From: Clostridiales bacterium Firm_09
GTDB lineage: Bacteria > Bacillota > Clostridia > Christensenellales > DTU072
Assembly (NCBI GenBank): GCA_001604065.1
Contig: LVAO01000004.1
Span: 1 to 64,000, forward strand
Direction: 5' to 3'
Length of the DNA stretch: 64,000 nucleotides
The translations under genes were made by a program, and so were the position numbers. A model generated the notes under the pieces. It saw only the letters and a program-made list of their open reading frames with translations. It did not search any database and had not been told where the DNA came from. Position 1 is the first letter of the stretch; each line of letters opens with the position of its first letter. This document shows positions 24,846-35,172 of this stretch, piece by piece.

Positions 24846-25295
24846 TCAGTCCATCAGCGCCTTGAATTGTGCAATGATTTCGGGCACTTTTTTTTCATCT
24901 CTGCAAATAACCAAAAACGTATCATCCCCTGCGATTGTACCGACGATATCGGGAATTGCTATCTCATCCACAAGCGCGCTTGCGGCATTTGCTCCGCCCG
25001 ATATTGTTTTAATCACTATAAAATTATTGACATAATCGATATTGACTACAGACTGGTGAAAGATGGTTTTCAGTTTCATCAGCTTGGGATACAGCGGCTT
25101 GATATAATGGGCTCTGGCCTTGCCTCCGGTTTCTTTGACCAACCCCAATTCTTTGATATCACGTGATATCGTAGCTTGCGTCACCTTGAAGCCGCAAAGA
25201 TTGAGCGCTTCCATAAGTTCATGCTGTGTTTCGATATCCCGGGAAGCGATAATTTCCAAAAGCTTTGTTTGTCTGAGTTCCCTGGTCATATGCAT
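24846..25295 (-). CDS. argR: Arginine repressor ArgR
   Basis: ATISRDIKELGLVK wHTH and GDDTFLVICRDE C-terminal. Confidence 0.93.
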   Translation of the reverse strand: MHMTRELRQTKLLEIIASRDIETQHELMEALNLCGFKVTQATISRDIKELGLVKETGGKARAHYIKPLYPKLMKLKTIFHQSVVNIDYVNNFIVIKTISGGANAASALVDEIAIPDIVGTIAGDDTFLVICRDEKKVPEIIAQFKALMD

Positions 25296-26301: not shown

Positions 26302-27036
26302 CTATTGCAGCGCCATGCAATGGATAAAATATTCCTGATTCTTTTCCGCAAAGGGGTGCGGCGCTTTGATTGTGCCCGATACGGACAATCCCAGGTCTGT
26401 GCAGAACGTCTGGATCTCCTTTACGATGCGTTCCCCTGACGATTTATTCAGAAGTATCCCCTCCTTATTCAGAGCGGCTTTCCCGACTTCAAATTGTGGT
26501 TTGATAAGCGCAACGATGGAAGTCAGCGGTTTGACAAACTGCATTACGGCAGGTAAAATCAATTTGAGCGAAATAAACGACACATCGATCACAATCAGGT
26601 CTGCCTTTATCCCGATGTCCTCAAACGGGAGATAGCGCGCGTTCCGTTTATCCCGTATGACGACACGGGGATCGCATTGAAGATGCGGGGGAAGGGCGCA
26701 CGCACCCACATCAACCGCAAATACTTTCGCAATGCCTCTGCGAAGCAGAACATCCGTGAAACCGCCGTTGCTTGCACCGATATCGATGGCTGTTTTGCCT
26801 TCGCACGAAATATGAAATTGCTCCAATGCGTCATTGAGCTTGATGCCTCCCAAAGAAGCAAAATCGTCGCCTGCCGCGATTTCCACCTTCGTGCCGGGCA
26901 TGACAAGCTGAGATACTCTGGCCGCCGGTTTGCCGTCCAGAGTTACTTTGCCCAGCTTGACAAGGTTTGCCGCATGGGTTCTGGAGCGGGCATATCCATT
27001 CTGAAATAAAAACAAATCCAGCCGGACACCGCTCAT
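26302..27036 (-). CDS. tlyA: TlyA-family rRNA methyltransferase (YqxC)
   Basis: S4 domain plus FtsJ-like DIGASNGGFTDVLLRRG. Confidence 0.93.
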   Translation of the reverse strand: MSGVRLDLFLFQNGYARSRTHAANLVKLGKVTLDGKPAARVSQLVMPGTKVEIAAGDDFASLGGIKLNDALEQFHISCEGKTAIDIGASNGGFTDVLLRRGIAKVFAVDVGACALPPHLQCDPRVVIRDKRNARYLPFEDIGIKADLIVIDVSFISLKLILPAVMQFVKPLTSIVALIKPQFEVGKAALNKEGILLNKSSGERIVKEIQTFCTDLGLSVSGTIKAPHPFAEKNQEYFIHCMALQ

Positions 27037-27671
27037 TTTTTTTCAAAAACAGAGAGCATTCTCCCTGTCAGCAGAATAATATCTTTGGAATGACGTATCG
27101 CGATATTCTTGAAGATGGCTTTGCCGCCTACGGTTACCGCACAGACAATGCTCGAAAACAATATCGAAATCCAAAAACTGAGCCGGTCGGCCGAAGTCAG
27201 TGTAATTTTGATAACGATAGCGAGGGTGCAGGATCCGCTGACTATGCCGCAGATATCCCCTAAGACATCGCAACAGATGCTGCTTACCTTGCCGGAATTT
27301 TTGACGAGCCTGATTGCCATACGGCTGCCTTTTATTTTCTTTGCCGCCATGGACAAAAGCGGGGCAAGTTCGCAGGAGGTTGCCGCAACACCGATGGCAT
27401 CAAAGATGACGCTAAGAACAATCAGCAGAAGCAGAAGCATGAAAGCCACCGAAATATGGGCTGTTGATGTCGTGATTTCGGATAAAAATGAGAAAAAAGC
27501 GGACAAAACAAAAGTGATTATCGTGATATTGATAATCCATATAGTCAGCTTATTCTGTCTGGTGTCGGATTTTTCGCGCCAGACATTGCCGGAAACCTCT
27601 GCAGAATTCATTTTCCCGCGTCCGTCCGCTTTGATACTCAAAGGTGTTTCCGCGTCTTTTTTGATCTTCAC
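27033..27671 (-). CDS. oap: OLE-associated protein (OAP) candidate: ~4-TM membrane protein with DxxxD motif and DUF21/CNNM-like core
   Basis: Four hydrophobic segments; FDAIGVAATSCELAPLLSMAAKKIKGSRMAIRLVKNSGKVSSICCDVLGDICGIVSG with DVLGD (DxxxD); GTG start at 27671 with GAGG upstream; immediately downstream of the large structured ncRNA and overlapping tlyA. Confidence 0.8.
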   Translation of the reverse strand: MKIKKDAETPLSIKADGRGKMNSAEVSGNVWREKSDTRQNKLTIWIINITIITFVLSAFFSFLSEITTSTAHISVAFMLLLLLIVLSVIFDAIGVAATSCELAPLLSMAAKKIKGSRMAIRLVKNSGKVSSICCDVLGDICGIVSGSCTLAIVIKITLTSADRLSFWISILFSSIVCAVTVGGKAIFKNIAIRHSKDIILLTGRMLSVFEKK

Positions 27672-27756
27672 AACAACCTCAGAATCGTGGTTATAATCTC
27701 TTTTTCTGCTGTCTGCGGTTTCCCGCGTTGCCTATTCTGAAAAACAGAATAAAAAA

Positions 27757-28325
27757 ATGGTGGTAAAGATTGAGTAAACCTTGCGCCATCAGGTTCGGTA
27801 GGATTTCCCAACGTTGTACTTGCCGTCGCCGAACAAGCAGTTTCCTTTTGAACAACGTCAAGCCGGATTGCTCCATAGCTTAACCGAATCGCCACTTAGT
27901 GCACACTATAATCCTCAATCTTTGCAGTCTAGAAATTTTCTTTCTCGGAACGGATACAACCTATCCTCTTTTGCAACCGGGGTTTCAAGGGCAAGGGGCG
28001 AAGCATCTGCGCAGATGCATCAGCCTGATTCACCTATTCACACCAGCCACTCAAGGCAAGCTACTCTGCACACAGCTATTGTTTACCGCATTGCAGGTTT
28101 TATCCCAATCAGTAGGCCTTTCGGCCAACCGGAGAGGGTCTCCACGGTAAATGGGTCGATTCCTTCATGCCGTTGAAGGCCGCCCATATACCTTAACTCC
28201 CAGCATCAGCCCCGATTTGGGCAATCAAAGCCAACACAAGAAACTTCATCGATATGCTCTACGACGGTATTTTATCTCCGTCCTCGATTGCATCGTATCC
28301 GACTAGAATACTGTACCACCAATGG
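27757..28325 (-). ncRNA. ole: OLE RNA (Ornate Large Extremophilic RNA) candidate
   Basis: ~565-nt non-coding gap between ispA and oap. Terminal 8-bp helix TGGTGGTA (28314-28321)/TACCACCA (27758-27765). Helices 27914-27923/27765-27774 (10 bp), 27883-27888/27794-27799, 27852-27858/27811-27817, 28145-28151/28082-28088. GGCC-GAAA-GGCC tetraloop hairpin at 28115-28126. Own promoter. Synteny as known for OLE loci. Confidence 0.85.
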
Positions 28326-28330
28326 CCAAC

Positions 28331-28359
28331 ATTATAGCATGTTTCAGGCATTTTCGCAA
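28331..28359 (-). promoter_or_regulatory. Sigma-A-type promoter for the OLE-like RNA
   Basis: minus strand TTGCGA (28359-28354), 17-nt spacer, TATAAT (28336-28331); predicted start ~28323-28325, at the base of the terminal helix. Confidence 0.75.
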
Positions 28360-28396: not shown

Positions 28397-29272
28397 CTAA
28401 ATCAGTCTATGCGAAAGCGTTTCCGTATATTCCCGCAGGTTCTCCAATCTGCCGGCCGAAGCTGTTGATAATTTATCAAAAATCGATTGGCAAATGCGAT
28501 TTTGCTTTGCAATTTCTTCAAGAGTATCTTCTTCTCCGTACAGCGAAGGAAAGGTTGTCTTGCCCTTATCTCCACCTGCGCGGAAATCAAGCAGATCGTC
28601 GACCAATTGAAAAACGAATCCGATGGCAAGCCCCAACCGCTCTATATCATGGAGATAGGGAGAGTTGGCCGCTATATACGGAACTGTGACAGCCGCCTGA
28701 ATCAGTGCTCCTGTTTTTAAGGTATCGATATGAATAAGTTCTTTTTTATCCGGGTTCCGGATAGTAAACTCCGCCGACTGCCCGCCCACCATACCGCGTA
28801 CACCGGCAGCTCTGGAAATTGCGTAAGCCGCGGGCACCAATGCCGAATCTTTTATACAGGCCTCCAACAGAATCTCATGTCCGAGATTGAGGAGCGCGTC
28901 GCCTGCAAGCATCGCTATCGCTTCGCCGTATACCTTATGGACGGTCGGTCGTCCCCTGCGCAGATCATCATTGTCCATGCATGGCAGATCATCATGGATG
29001 AGAGAATAATTATGGATGCATTCCAGCGCGCAGGCAAGCGGCAATATACGTTTGCGCGGGATATCTGCGGCATCTGCCGCAAACAACATCAACACGGGCC
29101 TCACACGCTTTCCGCCTCCGTTCACCGCATATTTCATTGCATCAAGCAAAACAGGATCGGTATTGCCTTCCAACGCCTGAAAATAAACCGGAAGCGCTTC
29201 TTCAATTTCCTGCAAAGCCAGACTAACGGAGTTTTTCATCATCCAATTCCAGTTCAAGACGCTCTGCCGCAT
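28397..29272 (-). CDS. ispA: Farnesyl/geranyl diphosphate synthase
   Basis: GGGKRVRPVL, LIHDDLPCMDNDDLRRGRPTVHK, GFVFQLVDDLLDF; start may be an internal Met overlapping xseB. Confidence 0.95.
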   Translation of the reverse strand: MRQSVLNWNWMMKNSVSLALQEIEEALPVYFQALEGNTDPVLLDAMKYAVNGGGKRVRPVLMLFAADAADIPRKRILPLACALECIHNYSLIHDDLPCMDNDDLRRGRPTVHKVYGEAIAMLAGDALLNLGHEILLEACIKDSALVPAAYAISRAAGVRGMVGGQSAEFTIRNPDKKELIHIDTLKTGALIQAAVTVPYIAANSPYLHDIERLGLAIGFVFQLVDDLLDFRAGGDKGKTTFPSLYGEEDTLEEIAKQNRICQSIFDKLSTASAGRLENLREYTETLSHRLI

Positions 29273-32469: not shown

Positions 32470-35172
32470 TTATCTGAAATACCGGATGCCGTTTCCGAAC
32501 AACTGCAAATCATAATTTTCTCCGGCATTCAGCACGTCTGCCACTTTGTAGTTATGTCCTGCCGCTCCGAAGATTCTGCCGTCCGGCGAACACAGGGACT
32601 CTATCGCAGCGGTATTGCCTGACGGATTATACGGAGCGGACAATGCCGGCCCACCTTCAGGATCAATATATTGTGAACAAATCTGTTCTCCCCGGATTAA
32701 AGAAGCAAGTGCATTTTCTTCGACCGTCAGCCGGATGCCATTGCCCTGTGACAAGGCCGCAAAAACCGCACCCTCCCGGCAGGATGACAGCCAAGGAGAA
32801 CGCACTGAGGTTAATTTTGCACGGGCTATCCTCCCGAGCGGATGTTCATCCGTATTTCTGGTCAGAAGAAAGGATTGAGAGGTATTTTCCATATATCTTC
32901 CATAAGGCAAAAAACCCAGCTCAATCAGGCTGTAAAAAGCTTCTCCAAAAGCGAGAATCAAACCTTCCCTGCGATACAACAGTTCATGGATTGCATCCAT
33001 AACGACCGGTCGGGAGCAGAATTCTGTGATAATCTTTTTCATATCGGAATTCTTGTTGTACGCAGAAGAAAAAACAAGGATATCCGATTTTTCGATTCGT
33101 TTGCGTATTTCAATAAAAAAGTCACGCTCTCCCGGATTCAGAATATGGGCATCCACCGTTCCGCCGCATCCGATAAAGCTTCTTTCGATCCATCCCGCAG
33201 TTTGATCGAATACGGGAAGATAGACCACAGGAGAATATTTTTTTTGCCCGCTGTACAAATGCCCCGGCTTTCCATCGCCGGTCTGAATGATTGGCGCTTT
33301 CGGATTGAGGCAAGCCTGCCTGTCGTTCCGCTTGTGCATCTCGGATAACTTTACTTCTACTTCAGCCCCTTTGATCATTCCGCTTGCATCCGTAATGCCA
33401 AGATATTCCGATTCGATGCCGGACAATTCATTTATATCTTCTACACTTGCAATAAGGTCACCGTAACTGGGCTGTAGGATACCTGTATCTGCATTTGCAA
33501 GAGAAAACCCACAATTCTCCCCCAGACAGGATTTAATGATTTCGGACAATGCGCTTTGCTCTGCAGCGGATGCAGCCGTGATATTTCCGTTTTCGATATT
33601 GATGCTGACGGTTGTCAGGAGTTTCTTAAGATACTTAAAATCCGGCATTCCGTAAACATCTCTTTTCAAGGGAAGACGAAAAATCTTTTTTCCGGGTCGA
33701 TAGAGATTGGTAATAAGCTTATCCGTCTGCGCCACGCCGCCGGCAATAATATTCTTGATATTGTTGCCGGGCTCATTGGGGTCATTTGCAAACACGCCGC
33801 AAAACAAAGCGTTTCTGGCGTACATCACGCCAAGCCGATATAAAAATTCTTTGCCTTTATCTTTACCCGAATCCACATAGGGAAGATTGCAGTCTATACG
33901 GATGTGATTGGGCGCGACACCCGCCGCCACCAGCTTGCCCACGGCGGTCACAACCGAATAGACGCCTTCCAGAAACGGACTTTGAATAATGCCTTCAAAG
34001 CTTTGCGCCGACGTTAAAAAGGCCTTCTTGTCCTGTCGGACCGTACCGAATACCTGAGAAGGTGTCAATCTGTATTTCCCGCCATAAGGGATATAAACCA
34101 ATTTGCCGACATTGCTCAGATCCGTATCCTTTTCTTCCATGCGGGCTTCCGTATAGGCGGATACAATTGACCGTTTGGAAAGGCGTTTTGGCCCATGATA
34201 CGTGTCGATACCCAGAATATCGTGCATCATGGCATAATCAAACATTGTATATCCCAATAAAAAGGGAATCGGAAGATCCAGTACCCTCAGTCCTTCACAT
34301 TCGATTATGATATCCTTGCCGTTTGTTGTTTTTCCGATTTCAATATAGGAGTAACCGTATTTGTCCAGCACAGGACTCAGCCTTTTCAGACCTCCGCTGA
34401 TAAGTGCCGCCACAACTGCGGCGCGATCACCGACAAGCAGAGCGTCAAAAATTTCTTCTTTGGGATCAGAAAGTTTGCAGCCTGTGCCGATATCCGTCAA
34501 TGCCTTAAGTATCCCCCTTTCGCATATGGAGCATGCTGCAAAAGAATTCAGTTCATTGATCATAGAAAACGGAGCAATCTCCGGTGTCGGGATATCTGTG
34601 CGGGGTTTAAGAAATACCAGTTTTTTAAGAGCCTTCTTCGGTTTGTGTTTTTCTATATGATATCCCAGCGGTATGTTGTAAATACGGGAGAGAGAATTAA
34701 AAGGATTGACAACAAAAGAAGGTTGTGGTTCTTCCTCGTATGTTTTTTTTCGATCCGACTCACGCATAAGATAACAGCGGGCATAAACTGTGCGGACATC
34801 TTCAAGACATACGGGCCTATCGCTCCTTATTTCTTCCCGGAGCTGGTGATAGAGATTCAATGCAGCATGTGTATGAGGATTCCCGGAGATAAGCCCGAGT
34901 CTGCCGATACGCTCGGTTTCTCCCGCGCAGTCCAGTTTCCAAAAACCATCCAGTATCCGCAGTTCGAACAGCAATGGCTCACGATTCTCCTGCAAGAAAA
35001 ATTCTTTGACTTTTCTTCTCTTCTGAACTTCTGGAAAAATTGCGTGCAGATTGCAATAGGCATCCAGCTTTTGCTTGCTGAAACGCAAAAAACCCCGGAC
35101 TTCACGCAAGTCCGGCAGCTTTTTTTGCGACGTTTTGCCTCTGTTGTCTTTTTGTGAAAAAATCAGATTCAC
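32470..35172 (-). CDS. PurL (FGAM synthase)-derived protein lacking catalytic residues; putative pseudoenzyme
   Basis: Colinear similarity to clostridial PurL: SPFLEGVYSVVTAVGKLVAAG, RDVYGMPDFKYLKKLL, EGLILAFGEAFYSLIELGFLPYG, QICSQYIDPEGGPALSAPYNPSGNTAAIESLCSPDGRIFGAAGH; catalytic motifs replaced; GTG start abuts the upstream TAA stop. Confidence 0.8.
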   Translation of the reverse strand: MNLIFSQKDNRGKTSQKKLPDLREVRGFLRFSKQKLDAYCNLHAIFPEVQKRRKVKEFFLQENREPLLFELRILDGFWKLDCAGETERIGRLGLISGNPHTHAALNLYHQLREEIRSDRPVCLEDVRTVYARCYLMRESDRKKTYEEEPQPSFVVNPFNSLSRIYNIPLGYHIEKHKPKKALKKLVFLKPRTDIPTPEIAPFSMINELNSFAACSICERGILKALTDIGTGCKLSDPKEEIFDALLVGDRAAVVAALISGGLKRLSPVLDKYGYSYIEIGKTTNGKDIIIECEGLRVLDLPIPFLLGYTMFDYAMMHDILGIDTYHGPKRLSKRSIVSAYTEARMEEKDTDLSNVGKLVYIPYGGKYRLTPSQVFGTVRQDKKAFLTSAQSFEGIIQSPFLEGVYSVVTAVGKLVAAGVAPNHIRIDCNLPYVDSGKDKGKEFLYRLGVMYARNALFCGVFANDPNEPGNNIKNIIAGGVAQTDKLITNLYRPGKKIFRLPLKRDVYGMPDFKYLKKLLTTVSINIENGNITAASAAEQSALSEIIKSCLGENCGFSLANADTGILQPSYGDLIASVEDINELSGIESEYLGITDASGMIKGAEVEVKLSEMHKRNDRQACLNPKAPIIQTGDGKPGHLYSGQKKYSPVVYLPVFDQTAGWIERSFIGCGGTVDAHILNPGERDFFIEIRKRIEKSDILVFSSAYNKNSDMKKIITEFCSRPVVMDAIHELLYRREGLILAFGEAFYSLIELGFLPYGRYMENTSQSFLLTRNTDEHPLGRIARAKLTSVRSPWLSSCREGAVFAALSQGNGIRLTVEENALASLIRGEQICSQYIDPEGGPALSAPYNPSGNTAAIESLCSPDGRIFGAAGHNYKVADVLNAGENYDLQLFGNGIRYFR

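Follow-up and report, generated by a model that had tools for sequence, protein, structure and literature searches.

A full-length OLE RNA and its partner genes in an uncultured family of Clostridia, with palindrome switching at the putative dimer contact

In the genome of Clostridiales bacterium Firm_09 (GCA_001604065.1, contig LVAO01000004.1), the end of ispA (28397) and the start of a membrane-protein ORF (27671) are separated by 725 nt, and the question raised by the locus is what this interval encodes. The window considered here is the whole 64-kb stretch analysed, positions 1 to 64,000 of the contig. A prediction made from the letters alone had claimed that the interval has no convincing coding capacity, and only short overlapping ORFs were indeed found in it; it had further proposed that the interval contains an OLE RNA, lying in an isoprenoid/recN operon beside the gene for its membrane partner. 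Few conserved bacterial RNAs that still lack a known biochemical function are as large as OLE. The gene order agrees with the proposal, ispA being upstream and oapA downstream within an isoprenoid/recN-type cluster in which spoIVB and nadK were identified by HMM, and recN and argR by ORF reading only (Table 1). The argR-like gene (24846-25295, minus strand) belongs to the same cluster as OLE, and ArgR is a candidate OLE-binding protein (PMC12265935). Elsewhere on the minus strand, 32470-35172 encodes a protein of 900 aa that resembles phosphoribosylformylglycinamidine synthase; its match to the PurL model is confined to the C-terminal half and, at 217 bits, is far below the cut-off of 1057.

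Table 1. Position and basis of the features discussed, in window coordinates
Feature	Position	Strand	Basis or remark
tlyA-type rRNA methyltransferase	26302..27036	minus	typical downstream neighbour; HMM
oapA, CNNM/DUF21 membrane protein, 212 aa, OLE partner	27033..27671	minus	Pfam CNNM, 30.6 bits; homologues; alignment A1
OLE RNA, full length	27744..28335	minus	Rfam positions 1-616; covariation in 43 orthologues
Seven-U run just 3' of the P1 3' strand	27751..27757	minus	shared with the Rfam consensus
OLE paired core	28321 to 27758	minus	
P9.3 hairpin tip GCAUCUGCGCAGAUGC, loop U-GCGC-A	28003..28018	minus	Rfam alignment; counterpart of OLE dimer bridge B3 (PMC12286853)
Promoter-like site TTGCGA-17-TATAAT, extended -10, sigma-70-like	28331..28359	minus	consensus match only
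ispA, farnesyl diphosphate synthase	28397..29272	minus	typical upstream neighbour of OLE; HMM

The covariance model of the OLE family (RF01071, gathering score 50 bits) aligned to the minus strand along its entire length of 616 positions, scoring 418.3 bits at an E value of 1.9e-119. The predicted extent, 27757-28325, was correct in location, the Rfam match being slightly wider (28335-27744), and the element so delimited is a non-coding stretch of 592 nt with covarying long-range helices, present as a single copy according to a search of the Firm_09 genome. The original prediction had itself named a decayed dxs gene or another class of RNA as the alternative. Nothing was found in favour of either, although dxs does take up the next operon position in some relatives (L055, L056). 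OLE was the sole Rfam family to reach its threshold in the 64-kb window and the changes in the region track RNA base pairing, so that this reading can be ruled out for all practical purposes. On the sequence evidence, the element is a genuine full-length OLE RNA, an ordinary member of a known family and not a new class.

The suggestion that it might be a divergent member did not hold. The RNA shares with the full-length OLE of Halalkalibacterium halodurans and Clostridium acetobutylicum the helices from P1 to the 3' end and the conserved nucleotides, one difference, relative to the RF01071 model, being a shortened P7 loop with a 9-nt deletion. It also has a conserved core in common with OLE variant 1 and variant 2, described in the TANB77 and RF39 clades (PMC11332333), but unlike these shortened forms it retains P7, P8, P9 and the GGCGAC-loop hairpin, and is therefore of the full-length type. 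The match to the full model and the presence of P7 to P9 rule out a divergent or variant form, and OLE is moreover common across the order: RF01071 found it in 47 of the 58 sampled relatives' genomes, the two other genus members in the sample among them. By OapA identity, the nearest named organisms are Candidatus Stercoripulliclostridium species (Clostridia). The locus places a full-length OLE and its partners in an uncultured family of Clostridia.

All the complementary segments of the original prediction exist where it placed them; GCAUCUGCGCAGAUGC was located at 28018-28003 and GGCCGAAAGGCC at 28126-28115. The value of the helices as structure was judged by counting pairs one by one on an alignment of 43 OLE orthologues. 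Strong covariation was obtained for four of the five long-range helices. For the closing helix P1 (28321-28315 with 27758-27764), pairing reaches 95%, and in six of its seven pairs both partners have changed; the helix 27888-27883 with 27794-27799 is 100% paired and covaries in 3/6 pairs; and that formed by 27858-27852 and 27811-27817 is 89% paired, all seven pairs covarying. The helix 27923-27914 with 27765-27774 stands in its inner eight pairs (97% paired, 8/8 covarying), the outer two (38% paired) being unsupported. The fifth, 28151-28145 with 28082-28088, was rejected as part of the OLE structure, since its strands are assigned by the Rfam model to P6 and P8, with which it would compete, and it is just 75% paired. 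Taken as a whole, the helix set gave a covariation score of 0.53, compared with 0.22 (sd 0.01) in shuffled alignments and at most 0.14 when the set was slid. Thermodynamic folding was only mildly unusual (z -2.4) and, folding energy by itself being weak evidence, the structural case is borne by the comparative data. Model match and covariation together show that the predicted fold of the window RNA is the published OLE architecture. The score of the window OLE is somewhat lower than the 501 bits of the best relatives, as might be expected from a decaying, non-functional remnant; however, given a match to the full model, helices preserved through compensatory changes, an undamaged oapA and a conserved L9.3 palindrome, a remnant is very improbable.

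The OLE of one relative (G009; L069:1057-1792) reaches 736 nt, its P7 and P9 region being enlarged. As read off the alignment, the near-invariant CAGUAUUCUAGUC / CUAGACUG are replaced in it by CGGCAAUCGGGUC / CCCGACCG; when the latter were paired by hand, three A-U or U-A pairs were found converted to G-C with both sides changed.

The useful additions made by the present locus and its relatives are a promoter-like site, operons that have oapA and lack OLE, and the exchange of palindromes where the dimer makes contact. The first of these, the promoter-like site, ends 9 nt upstream of P1. At 68 of the 91 non-redundant OLE loci (75%) a similar site lies directly 5' of the RNA, compared with 6.6% in a control of mononucleotide-shuffled sequences and 0-9% in bins farther upstream. 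As these sites abut the 5' end of OLE, the Rfam model probably takes in part of a promoter with its opening bases. In H. halodurans, the OLE cluster has been reported as one polycistronic transcript (PMC12265935). At the other end of the RNA no standard terminator was called, and the seven-U run just beyond P1 is a possible 3' end or processing region.

The ispA-OLE-oapA-tlyA context, as well as the OapB and bS21 genes elsewhere in the genome, are shared with the full-length OLE class. Of 44 loci, 42 carry an oapA homologue after OLE. One of the exceptions (L010) is a contig that stops 123 nt past OLE; in the other (L068, G046:C57) a short CNNM, OapA-like, match is located on a different contig (G046:C53), and hence the two genes may be unlinked in G046. 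In one locus (L063, G003), about 780 nt separate the start of oapA from OLE, the usual distance being 0-300 nt, and this interval may hold an insertion. No PDB sequence match was found for the window OapA. Alignment A1, in which the N-terminus of the 14th row is inaccurate, was used only as a search query and for OapA conservation. OapA has the CNNM domain in common with the Mg2+ exporters of the MpfA type, but differs from them in lacking the CBS and CorC domains and in adjoining OLE; MpfA was not found in the Firm_09 genome, whose assembly is 79% complete.

The nearly constant position of OLE directly 5' of oapA could also mean that the region is mainly a structured leader, regulating oapA in cis, rather than an independent RNA particle. 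Against it, P1 closes the whole 565-nt element from end to end, which exceeds the needs of a leader; in G046 the CNNM match falls on a contig other than that of OLE; and the OLE described in the literature is a stable, abundant RNA acting in trans within a particle (PMC12265935). A cis-acting leader is accordingly regarded as unlikely.

As for the remaining partners, an OapB homologue (L052:4114-4476) was located through its position between map and infA, the Pfam KOW search not having listed it, and its best solved match is OLE-associated protein B (7k9b, E 1.4e-13). OapC is encoded in about 45% of OLE species. The Firm_09 assembly gave no PF01248 match, but it is 79% complete and also misses the rpsL region, beside which an OapC homologue, an L7Ae-family protein, is encoded in the same genus; the OapC gene may thus lie in the missing part. 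The gene for bS21 is present. The window RNA differs from the full-length OLE class in lacking the CCUCCU anti-Shine-Dalgarno mimic, which was equally absent from P6 in 33 readable relatives, the P6 pattern being unreadable on 57 RNAs. This mimic is known from H. halodurans and does not define the family. In that species bS21 binds the CCUCCU motif in P6 (PMC12054373), and its absence suggests that bS21 binding may differ in the window OLE.

The reading preferred here, to which a probability of about 0.93 is given, is that the element is a functional OLE RNA. It would probably be produced both from its own promoter (28359-28331) and by read-through of the operon; its fold is the published OLE architecture. 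Gene content and the knowledge gained in other species suggest that two copies probably pair through loop L9.3, that OapA, encoded just downstream, would anchor the RNA at the membrane, and that OapB, OapC and bS21 would be further partners. By homology with H. halodurans, the resulting particle would aid adaptation to stress from cold, alcohol, Mg2+ and energy shortage or imbalance ("energy stress"). OLE dimers, attachment through OapA and a part in stress adaptation were all described in other species (PMC12265935, PMC11332333, PMC9723947), and it is by analogy with these that a membrane location and a stress role would apply to the window RNA.

Whether OapA needs the RNA is a question on which relatives with oapA and without OLE bear. 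In 11 sampled relatives no OLE was detected at E values up to 10. Four of these (G016, L053; G024, L054; G038, L055; G040, L056) have an oapA homologue in the usual slot, followed by tlyA or dxs, with ispA only about 30-90 nt away. In two GTDB loci (L087 and L107) ispA is likewise followed by oapA without OLE, and in another (L119) oapA has a different context; the short ispA-oapA spacing is found in six of the seven loci. An OLE missed beside these orphan oapA genes was sought with relaxed thresholds, and none was found. Fernando and Breaker found that OLE and OapA hardly ever occur one without the other, and suggested that sequences which were incomplete or had been missed may account for the apparent exceptions (PMC11332333). 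Since so narrow a gap is found in contiguous operons, OLE appears to have been cleanly lost and oapA kept; such operons argue for true loss of the RNA.

Palindrome switching at L9.3 bears in turn on whether OLE acts as a dimer in cells. In the cryo-EM structure, two OLE molecules form a kissing contact between their L9.3 loops via a palindromic tetranucleotide, with switches reported from GGCC to GAUC or AGCU (PMC12286853, main text). The inverted repeat GCAUCUGCGCAGAUGC picked out in the original prediction proved to be real, corresponding to the P9.3 tip in the Rfam alignment, and its loop is self-complementary, with the core GCGC instead of the GGCC common in the full-length class. The loop was surveyed in 119 OLE RNAs from relatives and GTDB genomes, a sample that includes genomes fetched twice (e.g. 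L021/L078 and L008/L080). Scored automatically, 106 of the 119 have a palindrome at the P9.3 tip; when misfolded cases were read by eye, the class being so assigned in about a dozen misfolded or borderline RNAs, a palindromic L9.3 was counted in 108 of the 118 RNAs that could be interpreted, while chance would give about 12-18% (calculated from 1 in 16 per tetranucleotide and two or three registers). The palindromes were GGCC (83), CGCG (19), GCGC (3) and AGCU (3), and the ten non-palindromic cases comprised GGCA (4), other sequences (3) and deletions of P9.3 (3). GCGC is limited to the genus of the window. CGCG and GCGC are palindromes beyond those named in the main text of PMC12286853, where GGCC, GAUC and AGCU only appear.

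On an OLE RNA tree built without the P9.3 region, only two changes are needed to account for the GGCC, CGCG and GCGC classes. With independent events so few and some loci duplicated, the switching supports, and does not prove, dimerisation in the cell. We consider it reasonably probable that the exchange among these palindromes in this clade is a natural case of compensatory evolution at a contact between RNA molecules, implying an OLE homodimer in living cells, and that retention of oapA after loss of OLE points to a role of OapA without the RNA. In two OLE RNAs of genus g3 (L058 and L060) and one of g7 (L066), P9.3, which forms the dimer arch, is deleted, and the L9.3 contact seems dispensable there.
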